A stretch of 64,000 bases of DNA, taken from NCBI GenBank assembly GCA_026417735.1, contig JAOACR010000020.1, forward strand, positions 1-64,000. Direction: 5' to 3'. The notes under the pieces are model-generated. The model had not been told where the DNA came from. It ran no database searches and saw nothing but the letters and a program-made list of their open reading frames with translations. A program made the position numbers and the translations under genes. This DNA comes from Kiritimatiellia bacterium (GTDB lineage Bacteria > Verrucomicrobiota > Kiritimatiellia > PWTM01). This document shows positions 21,146-35,851 of the stretch, piece by piece. Within the stretch, counting starts at the first letter, position 1; the number at the start of each line of letters is the position of its first letter.

Positions 21146-21275
21146 CGTTCGGGCACTCCTGACTGGGGATCCGTCGTTCGGGCTACCGAACAGGCTTCCT
21201 GCCCCGACTGCGCTGCGTCGGAAGCTGCACTGCCCACTCGGACGGCCCCGCACCCGCCACCAGCAGCATCGTCGC

Positions 21276-22127
21276 TCAACGCCGCGCCCGTTCGGGTGTC
21301 ACCGTTTCGGGAGTCGCCGCGGTCGCCCCCTTCGGCAACCATTCGATCGTCGCACGTGACTCGAACGTTTTGCCGCCCCAAAGATACGCAAAGCCGAATC
21401 CTTCGGCGGGTTTGGTGCCTCCGTACTGCCAGAAGCGGAACAAGGCGTCCCGCCGGTCCATCGAACCCCGCACCACCCAGTTCGTCCAGATGCCCCGAAC
21501 CGTCCACGTCGTGCAGTTCAGATGATTGGTCACGTCCTCCCAGAAGCGGATCGTCCGCGCATTTCCGTCATCCAGCACCAGCTCCACGGCCATGTCCCGA
21601 CACAGCTCGGGGAGGTTCGGTATGCTTGAGATCGGCCGTGAGGGCACTCCTGGCGCCCGGCTGAAAAAAACCGAAGTACGGACCGAGCCCGAGGGGTCCC
21701 GAGCGGACTGGCGATAGCTTGTCTCCAGCACCACCGAATTCGATGCGAAGCGTGTGTCCAACACCACGCGGGACCTGCGCTCGTCTTCCACGCGGATCCG
21801 CAGGCGGAACTCCGCGGAGGCCGCCCGCGCCGGCGCCTTCGACGTCTCGATCACCGCGCTCTGCAGCGACCGCTGCACTGCGAATCCCGCATCGCGCGCC
21901 CAAAAACCGACGTGGAAGATCCGGAAGGGCGGGCCGTCGCGCACGCCGTCGCTGAACAACTGCAGCCAAAGACCGTCGCGGCCCCAGCTCACCTCGTAGT
22001 CCGTCGTGCGGTGCACGACCGCACGCCGGCTCACCGGCTCGCTCGACGTCACCCCCCCCACTGGCGCTTCCGCCGCCAGCCCGAGGGTTGCCAGCATCAC
22101 GAGGACGAACGGATGTGCTCGCTTCAT
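21276..22127 (-). CDS. Exported protein of unknown function
   Basis: A 283-aa protein I do not recognise. The ATG at 22127 shares an ATGA overlap with the stop of the UroD-like gene, which fixes the start. A signal peptide (MKRAHPFVLVMLATLGLAAEA) is followed by a beta-rich sequence with many Trp/Phe/Arg (WGRDGLWLQLFSDG, FWQYGGTKPAEGFGFAYLWGG), resembling polysaccharide-binding or lyase-associated folds, but no catalytic signature is evident. The tail (after ~265) is Thr/Pro/Ala-rich. Translational coupling to a UroD-like gene and position before the rhamnosidase place it in the same catabolic operon. Confidence 0.75.
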   Translation of the reverse strand: MKRAHPFVLVMLATLGLAAEAPVGGVTSSEPVSRRAVVHRTTDYEVSWGRDGLWLQLFSDGVRDGPPFRIFHVGFWARDAGFAVQRSLQSAVIETSKAPARAASAEFRLRIRVEDERRSRVVLDTRFASNSVVLETSYRQSARDPSGSVRTSVFFSRAPGVPSRPISSIPNLPELCRDMAVELVLDDGNARTIRFWEDVTNHLNCTTWTVRGIWTNWVVRGSMDRRDALFRFWQYGGTKPAEGFGFAYLWGGKTFESRATIEWLPKGATAATPETVTPERARR

Positions 22128-23209
22128 CCCCTCCACTCTTGGACCGTTTCGATCATCGCCAGCACGTTCTCGATCGGCGTACCGGGCTGCACGTTGTGAC
22201 AGGAACACACGATGTAGCCTTCGCCGCCCGCACCGAGCGTTGAAAGGCAGTAGCGAGTCTCCGCGCGGACATCGTCCGGGGTTCCAAACGGCAACACCCG
22301 CTGATTGTCCACCCCCCCATGAAAAATCACTCGCTCACCAAACTCGCGCTTCAGTTCCTCGCAATCCATGCCGGGACACGCATGCTGGATCGGATTCAGC
22401 ACGTCCACACCACAGTCGAGGATCGGTCCCAGCAGCGGGCGCGCCGCGCCGTCGGTGTGGTAGAACACGCGCAGGCCGTGCTCGTGGATGAGGCGGCACC
22501 ATCGATGCAGCCGGGGACGCAGGTGCCGCGCCCACATTTCGGGCGACATGATCAAGGAGGTCTGCCCGGCGACATCGTCGCTCACGAACACTAGGTCGAG
22601 CACGTCGCCGGTCCGCGCGAACATTCGACGCATCATCTCGGTCTGAATCCACTCGATCCGGTCGAGCACCGCATCGACGTAGTCCGGATCCAGCGCCAGA
22701 TCCAGCATCGCCTGTTCCAGCCCACGCATTTGACAGTAGATCTCGAACAGCGACACCCACGGCCCGATCACGCAGAACTCCCGCGCGGCCTCCCGCGCGG
22801 CCGCATCCGCAGCGTCATAGTCAAAACGGTCCGGATCCGGCCACCACGGATAGTCATCGAGCGCCGCTGGCGACGAATACCCCGCCAATGGCGGATCGCC
22901 GAACTCCGCATAGTGCGCTGGACCCGCCTGCACCTCCCGCAGCGGCACCCCCCACATCGTTCGCGACCCGCCCGACTCCGCCCCCGCGCCGGACTGGGCG
23001 CCGGCCCGTTCCCCCTCCGCGGAACGGTAGTCCATGAACACCCACACGATTTTGTCGAGCCCGAGCGCCCGGAACATGTCCAGGTCGCGGTCCACACCGC
23101 AGCGCGAACGCAGCGCGGCACCGATCTCCGGCGTGAACCAGAGATCTACCGGCAGCCGATCCACCGGCCGGCGCTCCAGCACCGCGCGAATCCGTTCCTT
23201 CGCCGTCAT
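22124..23209 (-). CDS. Uroporphyrinogen decarboxylase-like (UroD/MtaA superfamily) protein
   Basis: A 361-aa cytoplasmic protein starting MTAKERIRAVLERRPVDRLP, the usual opening of UroD-superfamily proteins that are not haem enzymes. Other landmarks are DLVFVSDDVAGQ (~210), HTDGAARPLLGPIL and FHGGVDNQRVLPFG. Relatives include corrinoid methyltransferases (MtaA/CmuA type) and many uncharacterised genes in sugar-catabolic loci of PVC bacteria. The catalytic Asp/Tyr arrangement of true UroD is not evident, so haem synthesis is unlikely. The start is chosen by family alignment; no good Shine-Dalgarno precedes it, and an ATG at 23239 with AGGAG 14 nt upstream is an alternative. It heads an operon behind the direct repeats at 23330-23363. 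Confidence 0.82.
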   Translation of the reverse strand: MTAKERIRAVLERRPVDRLPVDLWFTPEIGAALRSRCGVDRDLDMFRALGLDKIVWVFMDYRSAEGERAGAQSGAGAESGGSRTMWGVPLREVQAGPAHYAEFGDPPLAGYSSPAALDDYPWWPDPDRFDYDAADAAAREAAREFCVIGPWVSLFEIYCQMRGLEQAMLDLALDPDYVDAVLDRIEWIQTEMMRRMFARTGDVLDLVFVSDDVAGQTSLIMSPEMWARHLRPRLHRWCRLIHEHGLRVFYHTDGAARPLLGPILDCGVDVLNPIQHACPGMDCEELKREFGERVIFHGGVDNQRVLPFGTPDDVRAETRYCLSTLGAGGEGYIVCSCHNVQPGTPIENVLAMIETVQEWRG

Positions 23210-23301
23210 TCGACCGTTCGCGGCGACCGCCCCCCACATGCCGGGCGCTCGAGCTCCTGTAGGGCACCCCCAACCGGTGCGCCGGCATTGCAACCGCGCC
23301 G

Positions 23302-23363
23302 AGCATAGGGCGGCAGCGTCCGAAAATCATTGCACAAAATGATCTTTTTTTTGCACAAAATGA
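23302..23363 (-). promoter_or_regulatory. Direct-repeat operator abutting a weak promoter
   Basis: A perfect 13-bp direct repeat (TTGCACAAAATGA on the plus strand) occurs at 23330-23342 and 23351-23363, a 21-bp periodicity that places both on one DNA face. On the minus strand the repeats end immediately before a poor -35 (TGATTT, 23324-23329), with TATGCT (23302-23307) 16 nt on. This is the geometry of AraC-family activator half-sites next to a weak -35 region. The regulated gene would be the UroD-like operon. No AraC gene lies in the window. Confidence 0.55.
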
Positions 23364-23375
23364 CACAGTTTCCAA

Positions 23376-25982
23376 TCATCGCGATGGCGCGGTCAGCCGC
23401 AGTTCATACCAAAGCGTCGCCGCGCCAGAAGCCGACACCGCGCCGCCGCGCAGTTCCCGTGCAGTGCCGGTGGGCCGGCCGCGGTCGTCGAGCGGCTGCA
23501 GCGCACCCTCCGCACCCGGTAGCACCAACTCGAACTCCACCGGCTCAATGCGGCTGGGCGCGCTCCCCCACTGCCGGCCAACGGACATCATTTCCGGCGA
23601 CACCCACCGCATCCCGGTGTTCTCCGTGTACGCGGTCGCCGCCACGATCGCGCGCAGCGGTGCGCGCACGAGCGAGCCGCCCTCGAGCGCGCAGATCGCG
23701 AAGGTGGCCGCCCGAAGACGCGTCGGCCCGATTCGGACCCGCAGGCCTTCGCCAAGATCGAGCTCCGCCCCGGCGATGCGACCGAGGGCCGCGCGGAACC
23801 GCTCCGAGCGCACCAGCAACCGGCCGCCTCCGGACTCCATCAGGCGCCACTCGATCTGGCCGGTGTCGGCCAACCACTCATGACGCCTTCGCTCAGGCGC
23901 GGCCGGCATCGGGATCGGTTCCCCTGCCTCGAGATCCAACGCCACACGGTGCTCGAGCGCCACATCGAGCGGCAGCCCCGCGCGCGCCAGCCCCACGACG
24001 TCCCACGCGTACCCGTGCCGCGCAATCGCATCGAGCTCGCGATCCAACGACCAAGGCGCGGTCACCTCGGTCCGTGCCGCGGCCACGTCGCCGCGGCGAA
24101 ACGCGAGCGCAGCCGGACGCACGTTCGCCAGAATCGTCGGATGCTGGCCGATATCGAAATACCCTGGGATACGTCCCGCCTTCAGTGAATCGTCCCCGTG
24201 CGCCCAAGTGTATAGGAAGATCGCGTCCCAGTCCTGCAGCGAGCCAAACGTCGCGAGCATCAATGGCCCCTCGCCCGCGTGAGGATTCGGGGCCGGATGG
24301 TTGTATTCGCTGACCATGTGCGGCCGCCCCTTCACGCGCTGCCACGCAAGCATCCTCACCGTCGACTCGCTGGGGGCGTCCACCATCGAGCGCGGCTCGA
24401 CGATCCAGTTCTCCGGATCCCAAGGGCGGCCCGTCCACCGCGGATGCTGCCAGTACGCGTGCGTGTCCACCAGTTCAAACTCCCCCATCAGCCGCGGCGT
24501 GGACGTCATCACCACCGTGCCGACCACCGGCGCCGCCACCCCGATCTCCTGTTGGAGACACTTCCGCATCGCGGTCCAGTGCGCGCGTTCGGTGTCCCAC
24601 AAAAACTCGATCCAGTCGCGCCGCATCCGGTCCGTGAGCGGAGAACGCCCGTGGCGCCTGGGCCAGCGCACCGTGCCACGCTCCGGCCGCTCGTCCTCCG
24701 CCGGTCCAATCCGACCGCCCGGTCGCACCGAGAGATCTGCGAACCGGAACACCGCGCCAGCTTGCGCCAGGTCGCTGAAGCCGAACCGCACGCGTGGATC
24801 GTCGCGCTCGGCTTCGAACGTGAACTCGTACGCGGTCCACTCCGGCTTCACTTCGATCCGCACGTCCCATCCGACCGACTGCCACGGCTCGTGCGCCTGC
24901 ATCACGTTCGCCAAAATCCATCGCGGGCGGTCCGCCGCGACGCGGAAGCGAACCGTGTAGAGCCCCCCTCGCCGCACCGCGAAACCGGGCTGGTTGAACT
25001 GCACCGCCCAGCCACCGTCGGCCGGGTTCTCCACCCGCACCACCGCGAGGCCGTTGGAGGTCTGCAGTTTCGCGCGCGCCCCCCGGTGCAGCTCAAGCAC
25101 CCAGCCGGTCGCGCCGGCGGAGAAGTCCGCGTTCGTCAGCAGCTCGGGCCCGGGCGGTTCGCACCGCGCCCCCCAGGCCGACATCATCGCCTCTGCCGAG
25201 CTGTATCGCGCCGCAAGCCACCGGTTCCACTGGGCCTGCAGGTCCGAGGCGAACGGCTCCGGCAGTCCGTCGAGGTCGCCGCTCAGCCAGGTGTGGATCA
25301 GGCCGTTCTCGTTGTTGATCTCCACCATCGCCAGCGCCGGATCATCCGCGACGCGCTGGCCGGTGAGCGGGTTGACACGGTCCAAGAGGCGCCGGGCATA
25401 GGCCTTCTGCGCTTCCAGATGCGGCGCGTGAAAGAATCCCACCGCGTGCGCCGCCTTCCAGTCGAGGCGCTGGATCGCGGGATCCACTCCGTCACCCACG
25501 CCGAACCGCCGGCCGACCAGCAGATTGATGTTCCAATAGATGCCCTGCCGCTTCAGCTCGTGCAGGAACACGTCCAGTCGGCGGAGAGCGTCCGGGTTCC
25601 AGTTCGTCCAGGAGCCGCTCTCGTAGCGGATGAGCCGCGGCTCGCCCCACGTCGAGTCCAAGAAATGGAATCGAACCGCGTTGATGCCGAAGCTCGCCAT
25701 TCGAGCGGCGATTTTCGGCGCGTCCGCCTCCGCCGGGAAACACGCACTGGCCGTCACGTTCACCCCAAAGAGGCGCACGCGCCGGTCGCCGGCGACCAGC
25801 CGCCCGTTGCGCACACGGACCGGACGGATCGAGGCCGCCGACTGAGCCAGCACCGGCCGCAAATCCAGCACGCCCCCCTCCGTATCATCCCACGGCGGCG
25901 CAAAGGGTACCGGTTCCGACGCACCCACCCTTATCGTCAGGCTCGCCGCCACTCCCAACGCTCGCAGTGGTGTCGTTCTCAT
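23376..25982 (-). CDS. Clan GH-A (GH5-like) glycoside hydrolase with inserted carbohydrate-binding domain
   Basis: An 868-aa exported enzyme with an N-terminal leader. The TIM-barrel starts near residue 60 (VRLFGVNVTASACFP; FGINAVRFHFLDS), and MVEINNENGLIH places the acid/base at E225. A beta-sandwich of CBM4/9 type (~278-425: LLTNADFSAGATGW, YTVRFRVAAD, FRFADLSVR) interrupts the barrel, which resumes at ~440 and supplies HMVSEYNHP with the likely nucleophile E559. A C-terminal beta domain follows. Substrate cannot be read from sequence. It lies downstream of two mgtE genes on the same strand and upstream of the UroD operon control region. Confidence 0.85.
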   Translation of the reverse strand: MRTTPLRALGVAASLTIRVGASEPVPFAPPWDDTEGGVLDLRPVLAQSAASIRPVRVRNGRLVAGDRRVRLFGVNVTASACFPAEADAPKIAARMASFGINAVRFHFLDSTWGEPRLIRYESGSWTNWNPDALRRLDVFLHELKRQGIYWNINLLVGRRFGVGDGVDPAIQRLDWKAAHAVGFFHAPHLEAQKAYARRLLDRVNPLTGQRVADDPALAMVEINNENGLIHTWLSGDLDGLPEPFASDLQAQWNRWLAARYSSAEAMMSAWGARCEPPGPELLTNADFSAGATGWVLELHRGARAKLQTSNGLAVVRVENPADGGWAVQFNQPGFAVRRGGLYTVRFRVAADRPRWILANVMQAHEPWQSVGWDVRIEVKPEWTAYEFTFEAERDDPRVRFGFSDLAQAGAVFRFADLSVRPGGRIGPAEDERPERGTVRWPRRHGRSPLTDRMRRDWIEFLWDTERAHWTAMRKCLQQEIGVAAPVVGTVVMTSTPRLMGEFELVDTHAYWQHPRWTGRPWDPENWIVEPRSMVDAPSESTVRMLAWQRVKGRPHMVSEYNHPAPNPHAGEGPLMLATFGSLQDWDAIFLYTWAHGDDSLKAGRIPGYFDIGQHPTILANVRPAALAFRRGDVAAARTEVTAPWSLDRELDAIARHGYAWDVVGLARAGLPLDVALEHRVALDLEAGEPIPMPAAPERRRHEWLADTGQIEWRLMESGGGRLLVRSERFRAALGRIAGAELDLGEGLRVRIGPTRLRAATFAICALEGGSLVRAPLRAIVAATAYTENTGMRWVSPEMMSVGRQWGSAPSRIEPVEFELVLPGAEGALQPLDDRGRPTGTARELRGGAVSASGAATLWYELRLTAPSR

Positions 25983-26004: not shown

Positions 26005-27360
26005 TCAGTCCCCCATCAGCAGCGAGCGGGCAATCAGAAAATAAATGAATACCCCCGACATGTCCGCGATGGACGTGATCAGCGGCACGCTCGCCGCCGC
26101 CGGATCCAGCCGCGCGCGCGCCAGTCCGAACGGCAGCAGCACGCCGATCAGACAGTTCAGCACGACCACCGCAAACATCGCCGCCGCGACCACCGTCGCG
26201 ACCCCGATGCCGCTTCGCCAGAGCCCCAGCGCGAATACGCCGGCCGCCATCGTCAGCCCCAGCCACGACGAAAGCACCAGCTCCCGACCGGCCATCCGCA
26301 GCCAGTCGCGCAGACGGATGTCGCCGATCGCCAGCGCGCGGATCACCAGCGTCGCGCTCTGCGACGCCGCATTCCCTCCGCTGTCGATCAACAGCGGCAG
26401 GAAAAACACCAGCGCAACGTTCGCCGCGATCACATCCTCAAACGCCACAATGCCAGCCCCGGACACGACGTTGATGCCCAGCAGTGCCATCAGCCATCCC
26501 ACGCGCCGCCGCACCAACAGCCCCACTCCCGCATCCACGAAACTCGTCTCCAGCGGCCGCACGGTCGCGATCCGGTGAAAGTCGCCCGTCGACTCCCGCT
26601 CCTCGACGTCCAGGATGTCGTCCATCGTAACGATGCCCAGCAGCATCCCCTCGCCATCCACCACCGGCATCGCAAAGAGATCGTACTTTCGGAAGAGCTG
26701 GACCGCCTGCGCCCGGCCCTGATGTGCCGTGAGCGCCGCGAACTGATGGTCCATCATGTCGGCCACGCGGGTGCCCGGGTCCGCCAGAATAACGCGACGC
26801 AACGGGATATCGTCGAGCAGGCGGCCGCGATCGTCGGTCACATACAACATCGCGAGCGTCTCGCTGTCCCGCCCCCACTGGCGGATGTGCTCGAGCACCT
26901 GCTCGCGTGTCCAGTCCGGCCTCACCCGCACGTACGCGGTGGTCATCAGCCGGCCAACGCTGCCCTCGGGGTAGTTCAGCAGCTCCATTGCCGCCCGGCG
27001 GTCGGACTCCGGCAGCAGCGCGAGCAACCGACGCGTCACGCGCGCGGGCATGTCTTCGAACAGCGCGGTGCGGTCGTCCGGCGACAGGCGCAGCAGCACC
27101 CCCCGAACCTCGTCGCTGGCCATGTGCTCGAGCAGCGCGGTCTGCAGCTCGGAAGGCAGGTTCGCGAATACATCGTCCGCGAGGCGCTGCGGCAGCAGAC
27201 GGAACAGAATCAACCGGTGCTTCGGGTCGTCCACCGCGGCCAGCAGATCTGCAATTTCCGGTGCCGGCTGCCGCGCCAGGAAGTCGCGCAGGTCGTTCCA
27301 TTGCCCCGCCTCGATCAGATCGAGGATGTCGGGTTTCAGAGAGGGAACCACCGGCGTCAA
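26005..27360 (-). CDS. mgtE: MgtE-family Mg2+ transporter (second of a tandem pair)
   Basis: A 451-aa channel with the standard layout: superhelical N domain (~10-130), two CBS domains (~140-255, IVTMDDILDVEE near the end) that sense intracellular Mg2+, and a five-helix pore domain (~285-451). The pore contains FLPLLIDSGGNAASQ and, in the last helix, TSIADMSGVFIYF, whose Asp corresponds to the selectivity residue of the Thermus MgtE. It starts only 4 nt after the stop of the upstream paralogue and differs from it at the pore-lining GGNA segment (Asp here, Gly there). Homodimers are known for the family; a heteromer is conceivable. Confidence 0.94.
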   Translation of the reverse strand: MTPVVPSLKPDILDLIEAGQWNDLRDFLARQPAPEIADLLAAVDDPKHRLILFRLLPQRLADDVFANLPSELQTALLEHMASDEVRGVLLRLSPDDRTALFEDMPARVTRRLLALLPESDRRAAMELLNYPEGSVGRLMTTAYVRVRPDWTREQVLEHIRQWGRDSETLAMLYVTDDRGRLLDDIPLRRVILADPGTRVADMMDHQFAALTAHQGRAQAVQLFRKYDLFAMPVVDGEGMLLGIVTMDDILDVEERESTGDFHRIATVRPLETSFVDAGVGLLVRRRVGWLMALLGINVVSGAGIVAFEDVIAANVALVFFLPLLIDSGGNAASQSATLVIRALAIGDIRLRDWLRMAGRELVLSSWLGLTMAAGVFALGLWRSGIGVATVVAAAMFAVVVLNCLIGVLLPFGLARARLDPAAASVPLITSIADMSGVFIYFLIARSLLMGD

Positions 27361-27364
27361 GGGG

Positions 27365-28735
27365 TCAACCTCCCCCCAGCACCGCTCGGGCGATCGAGAA
27401 ATAAATCAGGATGCCGCCGATGTCGGCCAGCGACGTGATCAGTGGCGCGCCGGCCGCGGCCGGATCGAACCCGAGCCGTCGCAGCCCGAGCGGCAGCAAC
27501 AGCCCCACCGAACTTCCAAACACGACGACCGTGAACATGCTCGCCGCGACCACCTCCGCGACCCGCGGCGTCCCGCGCGTGAGCGCCAGCGCAAACACCC
27601 CCGCCGCCATCACCAGCCCAATCGCCGAGCTCACGCGCAGCTCGCGCCACACCAGCCACGGTACCGCGCCGGGCCGAATCTCGCCCAGCGCCAGCGAACG
27701 GACCGCCAGCGTCGCGGTCTGCGAGCCAGCGTTTCCACCGCTGCCGATCAGCAGCGGCAAAAACGACACCAGCACCACCAGTACCGGCTTCAGGCGCTCG
27801 CTTTCAAAATCGGGTTGAAAATGCGCCAGCGCAGCGGTGGAAAACATGTTCACGCCGATCAACGTCACGAGCCAGCCGATCCGGCTCCGAAACAGATCCA
27901 CCAGGCGCGCACGCCGCAAACTGCCCTCGATCGGCGAAATCTTCGCAATCTTGTGGAAGTCCTCCGTCGTCGCCGCCTGCGCGACGTCGAGGATGTCGTC
28001 CGACGTGACAATCCCGAGCAGCACCCCCTGGTCGTCCACCACCGGCAGCGCGTACGCGTCATATTTTTTGAACAGCGCGACCGCCTCCTCCTCCGACTGC
28101 ATCGATCGCAGTACCGGGCCGGTGCCGGGATCCATCAGTTCCCGCAACCGCGTCTCCGGCGGCGCGAGCACCACCCGCCGCAGAGGGATCGAGGCGGTGA
28201 GGCGCCCCTCCTCGTCGGTCACGTACAGCACCGCCATCGTCTCGCTGTCCCGCCCGTGCGAACGCAGATGCTCGATCGTCTGCGCTGCGGTCCACTCCGG
28301 CCGCACCCGCACCCAGGCGGTGGTCATCCGCCGGCCGACGCTCCCCTCCGGATAGCTCAACAGCGTCAGCGACTCCCGCCGTTGAGACTCCGGCAGCAGA
28401 TCGAGCAACCGGTGCAACACTTGGGCGGGCAGCTCCTCGAACAACGCGGTGCGGTCATCCGGAGTCAGCCGTGTCAACAGCTCGCGCGCGTCCTCGGAAG
28501 CGAGATTCTGTAGCAACCGGTTCTGTACGTCCGCGTCGAGCAGCGAGAAGACCTCCGCCGCCAGCGAGCGCGGCAGCAGCCGGAACACGACCAGCGTGGT
28601 GCGGCGGTCCAGCAGGCCGATGAGCTCCGCGATCTCCGGTGCCGGCTGGCGCGCAAGAAAGTTGCGGAGCTCGTTCCACTGCCCCGCCTCGACCATCTCA
28701 ACGATGTCGACCTTCAGCAGTTCTGAGAGCAGCAT
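27365..28735 (-). CDS. mgtE: MgtE-family Mg2+ transporter (first of a tandem pair)
   Basis: A 456-aa paralogue of the next gene with the same N domain, CBS pair (VTSDDILDVAQ) and membrane domain (FLPLLIGSGGNAGSQ; TSLADIGGILIYF). It is the promoter-proximal member; a TATACT -10-like element lies at 28786-28791 on the minus strand with a weak -35, giving a leader of about 50 nt. I saw no M-box-like structure in the short upstream region. The two copies are clearly homologous throughout but well diverged, so the duplication is not recent. Confidence 0.94.
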   Translation of the reverse strand: MLLSELLKVDIVEMVEAGQWNELRNFLARQPAPEIAELIGLLDRRTTLVVFRLLPRSLAAEVFSLLDADVQNRLLQNLASEDARELLTRLTPDDRTALFEELPAQVLHRLLDLLPESQRRESLTLLSYPEGSVGRRMTTAWVRVRPEWTAAQTIEHLRSHGRDSETMAVLYVTDEEGRLTASIPLRRVVLAPPETRLRELMDPGTGPVLRSMQSEEEAVALFKKYDAYALPVVDDQGVLLGIVTSDDILDVAQAATTEDFHKIAKISPIEGSLRRARLVDLFRSRIGWLVTLIGVNMFSTAALAHFQPDFESERLKPVLVVLVSFLPLLIGSGGNAGSQTATLAVRSLALGEIRPGAVPWLVWRELRVSSAIGLVMAAGVFALALTRGTPRVAEVVAASMFTVVVFGSSVGLLLPLGLRRLGFDPAAAGAPLITSLADIGGILIYFSIARAVLGGG

Positions 28736-28892: not shown

Positions 28893-29585
28893 TCACTTGC
28901 GCAGCTTCGCGGCGATCTTCTCGCGGATCGCCTGCGCCAGAATGTCGGCGCCATCCGCGTTGAAGTGAATCCCGTCCGAGGCCCGCACCTGCACCACCTT
29001 ACCGCCAGGACGGATCAGGTAGGGGCTGAAGGTTCCCGGCTTCGGGCTGAACAGCGGCACCACATCAAAAAACTCTGAGACCGCAACCCGCCCGCATTCC
29101 GTCCGAATGATGCGGTTGATTCGCTGGCAGTCCTGCTGCAGTTTCGGATCCCGCATGTCGGGCAGGCCAACCCAAAGGATGTAGCCCACCCCGGCCGATT
29201 GCAGGGTCCGCAATACCGCCGCCACCCGTGCCGCGTACTCGCGCTCCCACTCCGTGGTTCCGTTGACCACCACCTGCCCCGCGTCCGTTCTCAAGTTCTG
29301 CCCGTCATTCGCGCCGAGCAGTAGCACCGCCGCAGACGGCCGGCCCGCCGCCGCCTCGCGCAACTTTGCGGGCCAGTCAAACACATCCGGCCGGGCCAAC
29401 CCCGTTCCAATCGAGACCACCGTCGTGACCTTCACCGAGGGCGTCGACGCAAACTGCCGCACCACCGACCGCGACACCGCCTGCATCAACGAATCGCCGC
29501 AGACCAGCACCTCCTCCGCCCCCCCCCGCGCCGCCACCACTACCCATCCCAGCACCACCGCCGCACATCCGCACCATCGTCGCAT
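28893..29585 (-). CDS. Exported SGNH/GDSL hydrolase of DUF459 type
   Basis: A 230-aa protein with signal peptide (MRRWCGCAAVVLGWVVVAARGGA); GGAGG 9 nt before the ATG at 29585 supports this start. SGNH blocks are intact: VCGDSLMQ (Ser32), LLGANDGQ (Asn93) and SDGIHFNADG (Asp204, His207), a complete Ser-Asp-His triad. DUF459 proteins accompany MBOAT acyltransferases and are thought to move acetyl groups onto extracellular polysaccharide, as AlgX/AlgJ do for alginate. Typical members carry their own N-terminal membrane segment; here a similar segment is encoded separately upstream. Inferred role: periplasmic O-acetyl transfer or removal in the 28.9-35.3 kb locus. Confidence 0.85.
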   Translation of the reverse strand: MRRWCGCAAVVLGWVVVAARGGAEEVLVCGDSLMQAVSRSVVRQFASTPSVKVTTVVSIGTGLARPDVFDWPAKLREAAAGRPSAAVLLLGANDGQNLRTDAGQVVVNGTTEWEREYAARVAAVLRTLQSAGVGYILWVGLPDMRDPKLQQDCQRINRIIRTECGRVAVSEFFDVVPLFSPKPGTFSPYLIRPGGKVVQVRASDGIHFNADGADILAQAIREKIAAKLRK

Positions 29586-29730
29586 CTTCTCGAACCTCCG
29601 GGTCGCGGCGGAGTCTGCCGAAGACCCTCGCGCCCCGCAAGTCGTCACGACGAGGCGCGTCCCTTTCCGCACCGCACCGCCGCACCCTCCGCATCAGACG
29701 CCGGTGGCACCGCGATCCGCTCCCTTGCAC

Positions 29731-30024
29731 TCAGCGGGAAGCGTCAGCGGCGAGCGGCTCCGCGTACCAGCGCTCCGCAAACCGTTCCAGCGCGTCGCGA
29801 AAGCGGTCGATCCGCAGCGTCGTCGACGCCGCCGCCAGCGGACGCACCGCCGCGAGCCAAAGCCGCTGCGCGGCGCCGCCGTGCTCCATCCGCTCGGCGG
29901 TCCGAAGCACCGCCCTGCCGTTCAGCAGCGCCGCCGCAAGGTAGAACGCCAGAACCAATCGAACGACGTCGCGACGAGACCGACCTGTGCCGTTGGCGCC
30001 GTCCGCCGATGTTCCCGTGCTCAT
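29731..30024 (-). CDS. Small membrane protein between MBOAT and SGNH genes
   Basis: A 97-aa protein starting at the ATG at 30024, with GAGG 6 nt upstream and 8 nt after the MBOAT stop. One membrane helix (~22-38, VVRLVLAFYLAAALLNG) is followed by RAVLRTAERMEHGG and an amphipathic Arg/Ala/Leu-rich tail. The pattern resembles the N-terminal anchor region that precedes the SGNH domain in full-length DUF459 proteins, so it may be the detached anchor of that family. It ends 145 nt before the SGNH start, and I found no second gene in that gap. Confidence 0.7.
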   Translation of the reverse strand: MSTGTSADGANGTGRSRRDVVRLVLAFYLAAALLNGRAVLRTAERMEHGGAAQRLWLAAVRPLAAASTTLRIDRFRDALERFAERWYAEPLAADASR

Positions 30025-30032
30025 GTGCCGCC

Positions 30033-31457
30033 TCAGAACTGGAAATAAATGAACGGCGCGACGCCCCGCGGTCCCAGCGCAAAAATCATCGTGATCAGCA
30101 GCGCGGCGATCACGCCCGCCACCGCCGGCGCGAGTGTGGCGGCGCGCCGTGCGAGGCCGTCGGCCCGCCGACCGTCGAGCCACTGCATCGCAAACCCCAC
30201 CGCCATCGTCACCGCGATCGGAACGGTGACGCGCAGCGGCTCACCGCCGCGCGCGAACGCGCCGAGCAGCGCGACCGCATCGTCCAGGCTCCGCGCGCGG
30301 AAGAACACGTACGTGACACCGACGAGGTGGAACGTCAGCACCGTCAGCGCCAGCCGCGCCCCGAGGGGCAGCCTCGCGACCGCCTTGGCGGCGCCGCCGC
30401 GCCGCGCCCACACCGCCCGCTCCACGATCAGGTACGCACCGTGCAGGGCGCCCCACAGCACGAAGTTCCAGCCCGCACCGTGCCAGAGCCCCCCCAGCAG
30501 GAAGGTCGCCATCAGACTGAGCGCGGTACGGCCAAAGCCCCGGCGGGACCCCCCGAGGGGCACGTAAAGATAGTCGCGCAACCACGTCGAGAGCGAAATG
30601 TGCCAGCGCCGCCAGAATTCCTGCACCGAGCTCGACAGGTACGGCGCATCGAAGTTCCCCGGAAACTCAAACCCAAGCAGCTTCGCAACCCCGATCGCGA
30701 TGTCCGAATAGGCCGAAAAATCGCAGTAGAGCTGCACCGCATAGCCGTACACCGCCGCGAGCGCGTCCCACCGCCCGAACATCTCCGGGTGGTCATACAC
30801 CGGATCCACCAGCAACACGCCGAGCCAGTTGGCAATCACCACCTTCTTGAACAGACCGCCCACGATCAGCACCACGGCCCGGCCCACGTCCAGCCGCTCG
30901 GCGGTCGGCGGCGACTCGATCTGCGGCAGAAGGTCCCGCGCACGCACGATCGGCCCCGCGACCAGTTGCGGAAAGAACGCAAGGTAAAGCGCAAAATCCA
31001 GCAACGATGCGGCCGGGGGGATTCGGCCCGCCGCGACGTCGAACACATAGCTCATCGCCTGGAACGTGAAGAACGAGATGCCGACCGGCAGCACCACGTC
31101 CAGCAGCGGCAGCGAGCACGGCCATCCCAGCCGCGCGCACAGCGCATAGGCATTGACGACGAAAAAACCGTAGTACTTGAAAAAGCCGAGCGCCAACAGG
31201 TTGGCCGCTGTCGCGAGCGCGACCCAGGCGCGGCGGCGGCCCGGGGAGGGGCTGCGCGCCAGCGCCCGCGCAATCGCATGGTTCACCACCGAGGAGCCGG
31301 CGATCAGCCCCAGAAACCGCCAGTCCCACCACCCGTAGAACACGTAGCTGGCCGCCAGCAGAAACCACTTGCGCGCGGTCGGCCGACCGATCAGCCACCA
31401 GTGGCCGGCGAACACGATCGCGAAGAACACTGCGAAGGTGAGCGTCGGGAACAGCAT
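30033..31457 (-). CDS. MBOAT family O-acyltransferase (AlgI-like)
   Basis: A 474-aa polytopic inner-membrane protein with the AlgI/DltB signature blocks: KYYGFFVVNAY (~94), PVGISFFTFQAMSYVFD (124-140), FFPQLVAGPIVR (161-172), QEFWRRWHISLSTWLRDY (279-296) and LWHGAGWNFVLWGALHG, in which His326 is the conserved catalytic residue. Such proteins pass acyl (usually acetyl) groups across the membrane to a periplasmic partner. Here the partner is probably the SGNH protein downstream. It begins 18 nt after the TPR-deacetylase-barrel gene, so the module is one transcription unit. Substrate is inferred to be an exported polysaccharide. Confidence 0.93.
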   Translation of the reverse strand: MLFPTLTFAVFFAIVFAGHWWLIGRPTARKWFLLAASYVFYGWWDWRFLGLIAGSSVVNHAIARALARSPSPGRRRAWVALATAANLLALGFFKYYGFFVVNAYALCARLGWPCSLPLLDVVLPVGISFFTFQAMSYVFDVAAGRIPPAASLLDFALYLAFFPQLVAGPIVRARDLLPQIESPPTAERLDVGRAVVLIVGGLFKKVVIANWLGVLLVDPVYDHPEMFGRWDALAAVYGYAVQLYCDFSAYSDIAIGVAKLLGFEFPGNFDAPYLSSSVQEFWRRWHISLSTWLRDYLYVPLGGSRRGFGRTALSLMATFLLGGLWHGAGWNFVLWGALHGAYLIVERAVWARRGGAAKAVARLPLGARLALTVLTFHLVGVTYVFFRARSLDDAVALLGAFARGGEPLRVTVPIAVTMAVGFAMQWLDGRRADGLARRAATLAPAVAGVIAALLITMIFALGPRGVAPFIYFQF

Positions 31458-31475
31458 CGCGGGCTGGTCGCGGCC

Positions 31476-34400
31476 TCAGAACTTGTACCGCACGCCGCCG
31501 AGCAGCGAGATCTCGTTGTAGTTCGGGTTCCGGTTGTACGAAAACTCCCCGTTCAGCACCCAGTGCTCGCCGATGGGCTTGCGGAACGAAATCGCCAGCC
31601 CCAACACCGGTTCCCAGTCCTCCTCCGGCGGAGGGCCCGGATCAAAGCGCAGCAACCGCGCACGCGCGACCGTCGCCCGGTACCGCTCCTCCTCTTCCGG
31701 CCGCACGTCTTCACGCCCGATGCCCAGCCGCAACCGTACGTTGTAGTACATTCGCAGATAGTTCCCGCGCACACCCGTCTCGATCGCATATCGCTGCAGA
31801 TGGTACGGCGTCCAGTACGCGCGACTCTCATGCTCGGCGCTGTCCCACGAGGCCCGCAGTCCGACGCGGAAGCCGGTGCGCTCGTGCAGCGTCCACGACG
31901 TCGAGGCGGCGAAATGATCGCGAACATTGTCGTCGGTGAAGTCATACCGGATCGCGGAAAGCAGCAGCGACCAGGGGTCTTGCAGCCGCACGTTCGCCAC
32001 ACCCATCAGCATGTGGTAGCGGATGTCCTCGACGATCGCGAGCGCGGACGGGTGAACATCGTGCTCATAGCGCAGCAGCAGATCCACCGGCGGAACCGGC
32101 CGCAACTGGCTCTCGAGCGAACCCGCGAGGACCTGTTGGTGTGCATCGCCCGCGTACATGCGCTCCAGCAGCTCCCCCGCGAGGTACACGCCGTTCGGAA
32201 AGGTGAACATCGCCCGGCCGCCGACGGTTCGCTCGTCCACATCGTAGCGGCGTCCGATCGGGGAGACCTCAATCGTTGGAATTCGACGACGGCCGAAGCG
32301 CCGGACCACGGCATTCGTAAGCAGATCGGTCACGTCCTGCCGGAAGTGGCCGATGCCGGCGCGCCCTTCCAGCTGCAGGTTCGGCGTCACGTTCAGACCC
32401 GCCAGCCCGTACAGCCGCCAATGCTGCCGGTCCTGGTTGTCGCGAAAGTATTCCGCGTCCGCGCCGACGTACGGTTTGCGCAGCTCGAGCGTCCAGGGGG
32501 ATTTTTTGATCGTGCCGGGCCGCTCCGCCGGCGCCCGGAACGTGCCGGCGAGCCGCTCCTCGACGTATTTGCGCACGCGCGCGAGCGGGCGCTCGGGATA
32601 GCCGGCCTCCTCCAACGACCGCAGCGCGTCACGCGCCGCGTACAGCTTGCCCTCCAGCGCGCAGTACTCCGCGCGCAGCCGCCGGGCCAGGAACACGGGG
32701 TGATGCTCGTACAGATAGTCCACCACGTCCTCGCCGCTCATCCATCGATCTGGCTCGTGGCGCTGGTAGAGCAGCGGGTCGTCGCCGGCCACCGCATAGC
32801 CGAACACGCTTTGAATGAACCCCACCTGGAAGTGCCGGCGCGCGTGCGTGAGAATCCGCCCGACGGGATCGTCCACGTTGGTCTCGTCCTCTTGGCCAAT
32901 GTCCCCGAACGGGTACGCGACAAAGTTCACCGGCCCGCCGAGCTCGCGCTGAAGGATCGCCCGGCTTTCGCGGAACTCTCGCGCGAGCCGCTGGTCATAT
33001 TCGGCCGGCGTTTCCATGCGGCCGAGGTCCGCGCGCCAGATGAGATTCGGCAGCGCGTGCCAGAGCCGGCCGCTCGCATCCACCGGCGTCAGAATCGCGC
33101 CCTCGAGCATGTGGCCACCGAACTCCCAACATCCCGCCTTCGCATATTCGCGCAACATGTCCCACGTGCAGATAAAGGGATGGTTCTGCAGGATGTAGCC
33201 GACCGGCACGTGCATCGAGAACACCAGCCCCAGCTCCGTCCCCACCTGCGTGCCGTACCGCATCGAATCGCGCCGGGCATCGTCGAAGCTCACGGCGACC
33301 ATCAGCGGCACGGCGCCGCCCGCGGGCCGCGCGAATCCCGGCCCGCGCAGCACCGGCCGCACCGCGATCGCCTCATTCGTCGCCGCCCGCTGGCCGAGCA
33401 CCGTGGGCAGCTCGCTGCAACGCACAAACCGGACCCGCGCCTTCTGCAGCGCGACCATGTGCTCGCGAAACCGGTCCACCGACAGCGCATCCGTGAAGTA
33501 CCGGCTGGGCAGCAACCCGTGGTAGAGCAGCACGGCCACCGCCCCCTGCAGGCCGAGCTGCTCGAGCTGCCGCAGCGCCTCGTGGGCCTTATAGAAATCG
33601 CCCCGGGCCGACTCGATCCGGGCCAGGTGATAGAGCAGATAAGGGTCCTGCGGATTGAACCGGCTCAGCGCCACCAGCTGCTCGCGGGCGGCGTCGTACT
33701 GCTTCGCCGCCAGATACACCTCCAACAGCCCCTTGCGCGCCCGGATGTTGTAGGGGTTGCGGTCGCGCAGCACCGCGATGAACTCTCGTTCCGCGTCCGG
33801 CAGCATCATGTCCATCAGCAGCAGCTCGCCGAGCAGCAAACGCGCATCGACCGAGGTGGGGTTCTCCGCGAGTCGCTCCCGGCTCAGATCAATCGCTTCC
33901 CGCAGCCCGTACACGCGCGGCTCGGCCTTGTGCAACCGCACCAGCAGCCGGATCAGGCGCGCACGGTAGCGCTCCTTTTCCAGTTGAGTCTTCGCAGTCG
34001 CCATCATTCGGCGCAAGTGCGGCACCGCTTCCGCGGGCTTGTCGCCAAACTCCGCGAGCGAGGCCATCACATCCAGCGCGGTCGCGTCGTCCGGCACCAC
34101 GTCGAGCACCCGCCTGGCCAGCTCCCGCGCCCCCTCCGCGTCGTTGGTGTGCAGCCGGCAGAGCGCCTCGAAGCCCATGTAGGACGGTTCGTCCGGTGCC
34201 ACCTCGCGCAGGCGCTGCCACAGCGGCAACGCGCGCTCAAACTGCCACGCATAGGTCAGCGCCTTCGCGTATTCCATCAGCACATCGAGCCGGTTCGGAT
34301 CCGCCGACAGCAACGACTCCAGCATCGGAATCGCCTCATCGCTCGATCCCTTCCAGAGCAGCACCCGGGCCAGATCAAAGCGTGTGCCCGGATTGTCCGG

Positions 34401-35285
34401 CGCCAGCTCCAAGCTCTTCCGGTTGTACTCGATCGCACGCTCCAGGTCGTTCTCCGCCGCCGCCGCGCGCGCCAACCAGCTCCACGCCGCTGCGTTCCGG
34501 GGATCCAGCGCCAGCAGCCGGCGCCACAGCGCGATCGCGTCCTCCTTGCGCCCCAGCGCCCAGTAACTCCAGCCCAACTGCTCCCAGGCGGCCGTGACGC
34601 CCGGATCCTCCCGAATGATCTCCTCCAGCAGCGGCACCGCCTGCTCGTGCCGTTGCTCCCGCGTTAACGCAATCGCCTCCTCCAACCGCTGCACGACCGC
34701 CCGCGCAGTGGGCTCCTGCGCCACCGGCGCAAGCTGACGCGAGGCCGGCGGCGCCGAAGTCACCACCGCGGCCCCCGCCCCCGGTGCTGCGCCCGACGGC
34801 CCGCGGAACAGCTCAAAAAACAATCCTACCGGGCCACCGGCAGGGGCGGCGGGAGCAACCGGCGGCGCAGAGGTCGCCACCGCCACCGGAGCCTCGCCAG
34901 TCGAAACCGGCGCCGGCGTCGGTGCCGCCGGGGGCGCAGAGGTGAGCACCGCCACCGGCGGCGCCGGTACTGCGGGCACCACCAGGTTGGTTGCCGCCGC
35001 GCGTTGCGGGGGAACAGCTTCCGAAACCCGACGAATCTCCAGCGCCGGCGACGCCGACGGCCGTGCCCGATCGCGACGGATGGTCAGTTCCTCATTCGTG
35101 GAGGCCCCCACCACCCCCACCACGAGCATCCCTAACTCCGCGCAACGCCAAGCCCACCGCTCAGGCGCCAGACCGATCCACCGGCACCGCGCGGCCGCTC
35201 CGCGCCGCGCTGTCCCCGTTTCACGGGGCCCTCCTCGCCGACCGCCCACTTCCCGTCCCATGGTCATGGTCCCACAATACGCCAT
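31476..35285 (-). CDS. TPR / polysaccharide deacetylase / outer-membrane beta-barrel fusion
   Basis: A ~1269-aa protein combining parts that PNAG systems split into PgaA and PgaB. After a basic N-terminus, a short hydrophobic segment and an Ala/Pro-rich linker (~100-190) come TPR-like helices (~195-575: WEQLGWSYWALGRKEDAI, then AAAWSWLARAAAAENDLERA). Next is a NodB-type domain (~582-860) with LLYHGLLP, VSFDDARRD (D668, D669), GGHMLEG (H725) and VAYPFGDIG. The last ~330 residues alternate like a transmembrane barrel and end in RYKF, the terminal-Phe signal for BAM. The second metal His expected after H725 is missing, so deacetylase activity is doubtful. Start is uncertain (other ATGs at 35267 and 35261). 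It leads the MBOAT/SGNH module. Confidence 0.85.
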   Translation of the reverse strand: MAYCGTMTMGREVGGRRGGPRETGTARRGAAARCRWIGLAPERWAWRCAELGMLVVGVVGASTNEELTIRRDRARPSASPALEIRRVSEAVPPQRAAATNLVVPAVPAPPVAVLTSAPPAAPTPAPVSTGEAPVAVATSAPPVAPAAPAGGPVGLFFELFRGPSGAAPGAGAAVVTSAPPASRQLAPVAQEPTARAVVQRLEEAIALTREQRHEQAVPLLEEIIREDPGVTAAWEQLGWSYWALGRKEDAIALWRRLLALDPRNAAAWSWLARAAAAENDLERAIEYNRKSLELAPDNPGTRFDLARVLLWKGSSDEAIPMLESLLSADPNRLDVLMEYAKALTYAWQFERALPLWQRLREVAPDEPSYMGFEALCRLHTNDAEGARELARRVLDVVPDDATALDVMASLAEFGDKPAEAVPHLRRMMATAKTQLEKERYRARLIRLLVRLHKAEPRVYGLREAIDLSRERLAENPTSVDARLLLGELLLMDMMLPDAEREFIAVLRDRNPYNIRARKGLLEVYLAAKQYDAAREQLVALSRFNPQDPYLLYHLARIESARGDFYKAHEALRQLEQLGLQGAVAVLLYHGLLPSRYFTDALSVDRFREHMVALQKARVRFVRCSELPTVLGQRAATNEAIAVRPVLRGPGFARPAGGAVPLMVAVSFDDARRDSMRYGTQVGTELGLVFSMHVPVGYILQNHPFICTWDMLREYAKAGCWEFGGHMLEGAILTPVDASGRLWHALPNLIWRADLGRMETPAEYDQRLAREFRESRAILQRELGGPVNFVAYPFGDIGQEDETNVDDPVGRILTHARRHFQVGFIQSVFGYAVAGDDPLLYQRHEPDRWMSGEDVVDYLYEHHPVFLARRLRAEYCALEGKLYAARDALRSLEEAGYPERPLARVRKYVEERLAGTFRAPAERPGTIKKSPWTLELRKPYVGADAEYFRDNQDRQHWRLYGLAGLNVTPNLQLEGRAGIGHFRQDVTDLLTNAVVRRFGRRRIPTIEVSPIGRRYDVDERTVGGRAMFTFPNGVYLAGELLERMYAGDAHQQVLAGSLESQLRPVPPVDLLLRYEHDVHPSALAIVEDIRYHMLMGVANVRLQDPWSLLLSAIRYDFTDDNVRDHFAASTSWTLHERTGFRVGLRASWDSAEHESRAYWTPYHLQRYAIETGVRGNYLRMYYNVRLRLGIGREDVRPEEEERYRATVARARLLRFDPGPPPEEDWEPVLGLAISFRKPIGEHWVLNGEFSYNRNPNYNEISLLGGVRYKF

Positions 35286-35332
35286 CTCTTGCCGTGTTGT
35301 CACGGCCCAAACAACCGCTAACCTAGCGCCAC

Positions 35333-35851
35333 ATGTCCTCGCGCTTCGCAGCTGGTCGTCGGCGCCCCGACTGGACCGACCCGCTCACCGGCGCATGGAA
35401 CCGCCGATGGCTGCGGGCCCGCCCGCGCCTGCGCACGCCCCGAGACGACCAGCGGCTGCTGGCGGTAATGCTGTTCGATGCCGATTCGCTCGGACGCGTG
35501 AACGACCGCGAGGGCTTTGGCGCCGGCGACGTCTGCCTCGTCGCCGTCTACCGTGCGCTCGTCCGCGCGCTCGGTCCCGTCACTCCCATCGTCCGCATCG
35601 GCGGCGACGAGTTCCTGGCATCGACCCGCGTTCCGACGCGCGCGGACGCCGTTCGGACTGCCCGCGCCGCGCTTCGAGAAATCAGCACCGACCGCGAGCT
35701 GCGGCGGCGCAGACTTGGCGTATCCGCCGGCATCGCGCTCACGCGAGGCGGGATGTGTCGGGACTGGCTCACATTGACCGATGCCGCCTACCGAGCGCTC
35801 TCTCGCGCAAAGCGCGCCGGCGGCCGGCGCGTGCGCACGACATGGGTCTGA
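35333..35851 (+). CDS. Stand-alone GGDEF diguanylate cyclase
   Basis: A 172-aa single-domain protein that makes c-di-GMP from GTP. DPLTGAWNRR opens the domain, LFDADSLGRVNDREGFGAGD holds metal and nucleotide residues, and the active-site loop is an intact GGDEF (RIGGDEFL). The RxxD inhibitory site is absent (Gly and Thr at those positions), so no product inhibition is expected there. No sensor or membrane domain is present. It is transcribed divergently from the polysaccharide-export fusion gene, with only ~50 nt between coding starts, and overlaps rsmD by 10 nt. The pairing suggests, but does not prove, c-di-GMP control of the neighbouring export locus. Confidence 0.9.
   Translation: MSSRFAAGRRRPDWTDPLTGAWNRRWLRARPRLRTPRDDQRLLAVMLFDADSLGRVNDREGFGAGDVCLVAVYRALVRALGPVTPIVRIGGDEFLASTRVPTRADAVRTARAALREISTDRELRRRRLGVSAGIALTRGGMCRDWLTLTDAAYRALSRAKRAGGRRVRTTWV

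Follow-up and report, generated by a model that had tools for sequence, protein, structure and literature searches.

Background

In the PNAG and Pel systems, deacetylase and TPR porin are two distinct proteins, which dock with each other, and TPRs followed by a 16-stranded barrel are the export design of PgaA, BcsC and PelB. How modification of the polymer is coupled to the outer-membrane pore in synthase-dependent systems is an open structural question. For Kiritimatiellota, our literature searches returned no exopolysaccharide locus. An excerpt of a paper on the Pontiella exopolymer reports a polymer resembling sulfated glycosaminoglycans, along with a gene cluster that includes hexosaminyltransferases, and within that excerpt no fusion system is mentioned.

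Sequences analysed

We considered a stretch of 64,000 nt (the window) from a Kiritimatiellia bacterium (GCA_026417735.1, contig JAOACR010000020.1), and within it the locus at 28893-35851. The draft genome comprises 24 contigs. Class-wide counts refer to a comparison set of 238 genomes, and metal sites were judged by alignments alone. An earlier note on this DNA had read the locus as a new synthase-type secretion variant. The genes of the locus are the following.

28893..29585, (-): DUF459/PatB-family SGNH O-acetyltransferase (profile matches and motifs; the longest frame reaches 29672)
29731..30024, (-): small membrane protein, 97 aa (conservation across loci)
30033..31457, (-): MBOAT O-acyltransferase, 474 aa (profile matches and motif)
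31476..35303, (-): TPR - NodB (CE4-fold) - barrel fusion (ORF, Pfam, AlphaFold2, Foldseek, orthologues)
35333..35851, (+): stand-alone GGDEF protein, GGDEF intact, divergent from the fusion

Results

The fusion is a single open frame of 1275 aa in its longest form (31476-35303, minus strand), translation likely starting at an ATG inside the frame (35261 or 35285, for example). Its parts, all on the minus strand, are listed below.

35097..35177, (-): probable signal peptide region, residues about 43-69 (N-termini compared by eye with congeners, position conserved)
33549..34706, (-): periplasmic TPR superhelix, residues about 200-585 (Pfam, AlphaFold2, Foldseek)
32754..33542, (-): PgaB-type NodB/CE4-fold domain, residues about 588-850 (alignment, AlphaFold2, Foldseek)
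33096..33098, (-): codon of Ala736, which aligns with H189 of E. coli PgaB; the second metal-ligand His is thus lost here (alignment)
32553..32735, (-): helical pair linking the NodB domain to the barrel, residues about 857-917 (AlphaFold2)
31482..32471, (-): 16-stranded outer-membrane beta-barrel, residues about 945-1274, with the aromatic C-terminus RYKF (AlphaFold2, family alignment)

Pfam reported TPRs and a weak Polysacc_deac_1 match (residues 668-803). The AlphaFold2 model of residues 196-1275 (pLDDT 88.9, pTM 0.79) runs from the TPRs through the NodB fold to 16 strands ending in Y-K-F, and in Foldseek the middle part matches the PgaB deacetylase structures 4u10, 3vus and 4f9d, with a TM-score by target of 0.73-0.76 for the first two. 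As the earlier note had proposed, TPRs, a NodB fold and a C-terminal barrel ending in RYKF thus lie in one frame, and the predicted structure supports a scaffold, a deacetylase-fold domain and a pore in a single chain. The curated Pga models gave scores below their cut-offs (TIGR03939, 51.9 against 366.7 bits; TIGR03938, 28.1 against 321.9). When the barrel was aligned by profile with relatives of PgaA, the score was 28.9, which is not above the controls (best shuffled control 28.1); the order was right in that alignment, and an F-S-D-x-N stretch was in common.

The same architecture was found across one class, Kiritimatiellia, whose members are mostly uncultured; 68 of the 238 genomes have it. 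Orthologues of full length in a single frame are present in three other species of the genus (67-79% identity), and the alignment took in 54 distinct relatives of full length, hence the fusion is neither an assembly error nor a chance product. An artefact joining separate genes might be suspected in a draft of 24 contigs, but the one-frame architecture recurs in dozens of independent assemblies, including those of the congeners, and we consider this explanation ruled out for practical purposes, its probability being negligible.

According to the alignment, the NodB domain of the window fusion keeps the YH motif (H595), the FDD motif (D674, D675) and the first metal His (H731), while the second metal His is Ala or Ser here and in the whole clade of seven. 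With respect to an active CE4/NodB enzyme, the fold is therefore present and the full catalytic and metal set is not, one His missing; the Pga-type metal triad Asp-His-His is incomplete in the fusion and degenerate in its PgaB-like partner. In the window's genome only a barrel-less paralogue, on contig C9, keeps the full metal motif. The earlier view of a NodB-type domain that modifies the polymer as it is passed to the pore is not supported for this copy. Because the metal-ligand His is lost, the window NodB domain more likely binds and guides the polymer than deacetylates it, and its activity, as read from the alignment, would have been lost.

We also considered that the domain might still be catalytically active through a changed metal site and N-deacetylate the polymer in line. 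A single missing His need not end activity, since another residue may supply the ligand; H595, D674, D675 and H731 are retained, the fold is PgaB-like, and about a third of the relatives (19 of 57 fusions) have the full D-D-H-H, which makes an active ancestral domain probable. On the other hand, the Ala or Ser replacement extends to the whole clade of seven, the tree shows 8 to 11 changes in the set of intact sites, and in PelA the corresponding single mutants D530, H600 and H604 each lose all activity (PMC12022489). We regard an active window copy as unlikely. In other lineages, where the full site is kept, the same domain could deacetylate the polymer in line.

A search for an orphan GT2 synthase, as the earlier note had suggested, found one with a PgaB-like gene beside it, on contig C3 of the window's genome (G000:C3) and not on the contig of the fusion.

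G000:C3, about 22031-23593: processive GT2 synthase (QQxRW; paired with the PgaB-like gene)
G000:C3, about 18084-22409: large PgaB-like protein (adjoins the GT2 gene)

The best NCBIfam matches of the synthase were NodC (157 bits) and PgaC (109 bits), both under the curated cut-offs (for TIGR03937, 108.9 against 422.3), and QQxRW was found in 21 of 22 synthases. Since the contigs differ, the link between fusion and synthase in the window's genome is drawn from relatives and from co-occurrence. In relatives the fusion adjoins a processive GT2 synthase and a large PgaB-like protein: the contiguous order GT2 - PgaB-like - MBOAT - SGNH - fusion occurs in L078, L080, L081, L091, L103 and L105, and the GT2 and PgaB-like genes adjoin the fusion in many more loci. 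The complete set of genes is also present at locus L077, from 'Kiritimatiellaeota bacterium B1221', a record without a MAG label. Over the 238 genomes, 60 had both fusion and PgaB-like protein, 8 the fusion only, 1 the partner only and 169 neither (Fisher p about 3e-46, not corrected for phylogeny). Some of the 8 genomes with a fusion and no strong PgaB-like match are fragmented assemblies.

The partner combines a NodB fold that has become degenerate with CBM66-like sandwiches and TPRs, and an anchor in the inner membrane is probable. Its top Foldseek matches were full-length PgaB (4f9d/4f9j), followed by single deacetylase domains and CBM66. None of 24 aligned copies has an intact metal site, two of the 24 lacking part of the domain.

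It could also be that the fusion handles not the product of the C3 synthase but some other glycan, such as a different surface sugar or even a degraded polysaccharide that is taken up. Fusion and synthase are unlinked in the window's genome, and Kiritimatiellia are known for degrading polysaccharides (PMC6388578). The near-perfect genome-level co-occurrence of the fusion with the synthase's PgaB-like partner speaks against it. So does the direct linkage in many relatives. The TPR plus 16-strand barrel design is moreover generally known from export, in PgaA, BcsC and PelB, and we consider this explanation highly improbable.

Next to the fusion, the presence of an acetylation pair was borne out: an MBOAT and/or an SGNH gene lies near the full-length fusion in 34 of 47 loci, within the sampled stretch. 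The window MBOAT ends in FIYFQF, an instance of the acyl-shuttle motif FXYXXF, and this C-terminus is found in 25 of 25 MBOATs; in PatA the tyrosine of the motif is the acetyl shuttle (PMC12148441). The SGNH protein has the Ser-His-Asp set of MBOAT-SGNH O-acyltransfer pairs, with intact GDS, GxND and DxxH blocks, which are present in 38 of 40 proteins. PatB takes chitooligosaccharides as acceptors in vitro (PMC9487903). Its start is most likely ATG 29585, which has GGAGG ahead and a signal peptide after, and not 29672 as previously assigned. In most loci in which MBOAT and SGNH adjoin, the 97-aa membrane protein sits between them; its presence had been noticed correctly, but not its length (29731-30024, not 150 aa). 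As judged from motifs and gene order, the three proteins would form an O-acetylation module, by which the exported polymer would be O-acetylated.

Two other assignments were rejected. The small protein is not most simply read as a DltX-like acyl shuttle, because FXYXXF is found on the MBOAT itself, and the small protein does not end in this motif. The MBOAT is not a DltB equivalog (181 against 375 bits).

The module could instead serve PatA/PatB-type peptidoglycan O-acetylation and merely neighbour the export protein: the SGNH protein is a member of DUF459, the family of PatB (PMC9487903), and the only one in the window's genome. Yet MBOAT and/or SGNH accompany the fusion across the class in those 34 of 47 loci, frequently within an unbroken same-strand run that includes the synthase, and the PatB equivalog model gave 94.5 bits against a cut-off of 580. 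A peptidoglycan role is very unlikely.

In each of the four members of the genus the GGDEF gene is divergent from the fusion and adjacent to it; outside the genus, such a gene adjoins the fusion at one other locus, L086. PilZ and EAL searches gave no match in the window's genome. Of the co-occurrences anticipated, that with MBOAT/SGNH extends across loci; that with GGDEF is genus-level apart from L086, and c-di-GMP regulation is weakly suggested, by adjacency in the four congeners.

Proposed mechanism

We consider it likely that the locus encodes one half, for export and O-acetylation, of a synthase-dependent exopolysaccharide system specific to Kiritimatiellia, the window NodB domain more likely being a polymer guide. 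The marks of such secretion were found: a GT2 synthase with QQxRW, TPRs coupled to a barrel in the AlphaFold2 model, and intact MBOAT and SGNH motifs. The GT2 synthase on G000:C3 would build a polymer from a sugar that is most likely a hexosamine of the GlcNAc type, and move the chain across the inner membrane, and the large PgaB-like protein would take it over in the periplasm. The MBOAT would place acetyl groups on its own C-terminal tyrosine, from which the PatB-like SGNH enzyme would move acetyls onto the chain, the 97-aa protein perhaps assisting. The fusion would then lead the polymer along the TPR superhelix, past NodB, and out via its own 16-stranded barrel, the outward flow being the presumed direction.

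We hold with fair confidence that the locus represents a new variant among synthase-dependent systems of exopolysaccharide secretion; the architecture, the acetylation pair and the synthase agree with the earlier proposal of such a variant, whereas in-line deacetylation by the window copy is not supported. More tentatively, it is possible that an O-acetylated polysaccharide is exported class-wide via pores with a covalently built-in deacetylase fold. In this view the fold would repeatedly have given up catalysis to become a gate that reads the polymer, an enlarged PgaB-like protein without enzymatic activity would act as the receiver, and recognition and O-acetylation would thereby replace the N-deacetylation of PNAG export.

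As far as the literature searched shows, this is the first concrete exopolysaccharide export machinery for Kiritimatiellia. The single chain fixes the geometry of deacetylase and porin, and close relatives exist with and without the catalytic site; therefore the role of NodB in export, as enzyme or guide, is directly testable.

Comparison with known systems

Our literature searches found no description of a TPR-deacetylase-barrel fusion, in agreement with the earlier note; a pore-enzyme fusion as such does have a precedent, the Zymomonas BcsZ-BcsC fusion (PMC7112194). There too an export pore is fused to a modification enzyme, but that enzyme is a cellulase in a cellulose system, whereas here it is a NodB domain.

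With Pga (PgaABCD, E. coli) the locus shares TPRs with a barrel porin, a PgaB-type deacetylase fold, a PgaC-like GT2 and a diguanylate cyclase gene that diverges from the porin gene, as dgcT does from pgaA in K-12. In contrast to Pga, the porin itself contains the deacetylase fold, CBM66-like and TPR parts extend a second PgaB-like protein that is degenerate, the metal site is incomplete, O-acetylation genes are added, and the curated Pga cut-offs are all missed. In Pel, the deacetylase domain acts on the TPRs of the TPR-barrel porin (PMC12022489), a likeness drawn from PelA/PelB alone; here the deacetylase fold is covalently in the porin.

The MBOAT plus SGNH pair resembles those of alginate (AlgK/AlgE, AlgI/J/X) and acetylated cellulose (WssH/WssI), which O-acetylate the polymer during export. 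In contrast to these, the SGNH protein is DUF459/PatB-type, pore and TPRs are one chain with the NodB domain, and a 97-aa membrane protein lies between MBOAT and SGNH. The FXYXXF MBOAT with a DUF459 SGNH is also the combination of PatA/PatB peptidoglycan O-acetylation, but here the genomic partners are polysaccharide export genes.

Architecture and distribution of the fusion

The fusion gene (31476-35303, minus strand) is an uninterrupted frame of 1275 aa, in which the earlier note had read TPR-like helices, a NodB-type domain and a barrel in a single chain. The open frame, the AlphaFold2 model and the Foldseek matches confirmed this reading, with corrections. Pfam gave TPRs and a Polysacc_deac_1 match below threshold, and NCBIfam gave weak matches to PgaA-TPR, PgaB and BcsC, far under the cut-offs. 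Structure prediction, proposed earlier as a check, was run with AlphaFold2 on residues 196-1275 with 46 family sequences (mean pLDDT 88.9, pTM 0.79) and returned a NodB fold and a 16-strand C-terminal barrel; the middle part matched the PgaB deacetylases 4u10, 3vus and 4f9d (Foldseek against PDB). We considered the architecture established by this predicted structure (AlphaFold2, model numbering):

5-390: TPR helices
393-655: NodB domain
662-722: helical pair
750-1079: 16 strands, C-terminus aromatic

Full-length orthologues were present in three other species of the genus (79, 69 and 67% identity). Scanning a genome collection (84,980 species) with two peptide patterns, which may miss similarly built but unrelated fusions in other phyla, gave 64 fusion loci, nearly all labelled as Kiritimatiellae, 'Lentisphaerae', Verrucomicrobia or PVC-group MAGs. 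The fusion was present in 68 of the 238 genomes of the class. In a sample of 388 genomes from the phylum, each of the 35 matches belonged to this class. Some loci of relatives carry two or three fusion genes in tandem (L063:8330-19717, L073:1535-12178, L066:6353-14680, L069:6591-14548), with NodB motifs badly degraded in two of the three copies of L073, which suggests a division of labour or mixed pores.

Metal site of the NodB domain

In profile alignments, H55, D114, D115, H184 and H189 of E. coli PgaB corresponded to H595, D674, D675, H731 and Ala736 of the window fusion. A metal-site role for H189 was reportedly described by Little et al. in 2012. Among 55 distinct fusions, the residues at the positions of H55, D114, D115, H184 and H189 were kept in 47, 54, 48, 45 and 23, respectively. 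In PgaB the metal is coordinated by D115 and H184 (PMC13366581), and at the homologous site of PelA all three metal ligands are required (PMC12022489). The intact set, found in 19 of 57 rows of a maximum-likelihood tree (metal-site loop left out of the alignment), needs 11 changes, at least 8 of them on well-supported branches, and was lost in all seven members of the window's clade; the domain was therefore probably active ancestrally and then decayed repeatedly while the fold stayed. In the window, it would bind the polymer rather than deacetylate it. The full deacetylase motif is kept in this genome only by a paralogue on contig C9:

L025:7881-10406: P0002, TPR-NodB without barrel, deacetylase motif intact

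The counterpart of P0002 in the congener G002 (C53:10152-11545) is broken by stop codons.

Synthase pair and its linkage to the fusion

The orphan GT2 synthase predicted by the earlier note was found on contig C3 of the same genome. Its sequence shows the processive-synthase motifs D, DxD and QQxRW, and its best curated models were NodC and PgaC, below cut-off.

L024:10032-11594, minus strand: GT2 gene
L024:6085-10410, minus strand: PgaB-like frame, 1441 aa, directly after the GT2 gene

Near this pair, L024:11755-15033 encodes a 1092-aa protein with a match to the hydrazine-synthase-alpha middle domain (PF18582) and an FGE-sulfatase domain.

In relatives the pair adjoins the fusion, with the one-strand order GT2, PgaB-like, MBOAT, SGNH, fusion in L078, L080, L081, L091, L103 and L105. 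Within the fetched stretches of the 47 loci with a full-length fusion, which often end early at contig ends, MBOAT and/or SGNH genes were near the fusion in 34 and PgaB-like and/or GT2 genes in 23. Across the 238 genomes, 60 had both fusion and PgaB-like gene, 8 only the fusion, 1 only the PgaB-like gene and 169 neither (Fisher p ~3e-46, which overstates the independent evidence because it ignores shared ancestry). We regard gene content, co-occurrence and catalytic motifs as established. In L077 (JARHXX010000008.1; 'Kiritimatiellaeota bacterium B1221', not labelled as a MAG and possibly a cultured strain), fusion, MBOAT, SGNH, GT2, PgaB-like and regulator genes lie within 22 kb.

The model of the L053 PgaB-like copy (AlphaFold2, pLDDT 84.5, pTM 0.53, domain arrangement unsure) comprised a NodB domain followed by TPRs, with a beta-sandwich and an alpha/beta domain on either side of the TPRs. 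Full-length E. coli PgaB led its Foldseek matches, ahead of single deacetylase domains and, after these, CBM66 carbohydrate-binding modules. Since its NodB site is degenerate in every aligned copy (YH to YE, YA or similar; FDD to FDH, FDQ or FEQ; second His missing), the protein probably receives the chain without acting on it as an enzyme. Shortened or split extra copies (TPR half or NodB half alone) lie beside the full-length one in L042:8087-10423 and L039:7362-11324.

O-acetylation genes

Downstream of the fusion lie the MBOAT gene and those of a conserved membrane protein of 97 aa and a DUF459 (PatB-family) SGNH protein. The C-terminus was FIYFQF in each of the 25 MBOATs examined, in line with the acyl-shuttle hexapeptide FXYXXF; in PatA the Tyr of this motif takes up the acetyl, which then passes to the SGNH partner (PMC12148441). 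SGNH blocks were intact in 38 of 40. As the window SGNH is the only DUF459 protein of its genome, a role in peptidoglycan O-acetylation is conceivable but unlikely, given its conserved neighbourhood with export genes. Action on a GlcNAc-type polymer would fit the PatB-family substrate range, founding members taking chitooligosaccharides in vitro (PMC9487903). Directly downstream of the SGNH gene (26005-28735) are two adjoining paralogous MgtE magnesium transporters, in the same order in the sister species G001.

Possible regulators

Of the c-di-GMP control suggested earlier, the gene arrangement held: a stand-alone, divergent GGDEF gene adjoins the fusion upstream in all four congeners, as dgcT is divergent from pgaA in E. 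coli Pga, and in one congener (L028/L045) EF-G and YebC, its flanking genes in the window, do not accompany it. However, the window's genome gave no PilZ or EAL match and has only two GGDEF genes, and the arrangement is rare outside the genus, so that such regulation is only possible. In about 10 of the 47 loci, a module that is possibly a regulatory unit stands beside the synthase/fusion genes; no copy occurs in the sequence fetched around the C3 pair of the window's genome.

L049:18110-20241, L056:17935-20223, L073:17750-19945, L079:12279-14527, others: response regulator, KaiC-like ATPase and AAA ATPase

Proposed mechanism and comparison with known systems

We propose that the GT2 would make a hexosamine polymer, the PgaB-like protein would receive it, MBOAT and SGNH would acetylate it, and the fusion would lead it through its TPR and NodB groove, the latter in the window copy binding in place of deacetylating, to its own barrel. 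The literature searched held no single TPR, deacetylase-fold and barrel chain with O-acetylation genes, and it is this combination that would be new here. An export pore fused to a modification enzyme is already known from BcsZ-BcsC (PMC7112194), and TPR-deacetylase docking from PgaA-PgaB and PelB-PelA (PMC9384988, PMC12022489).
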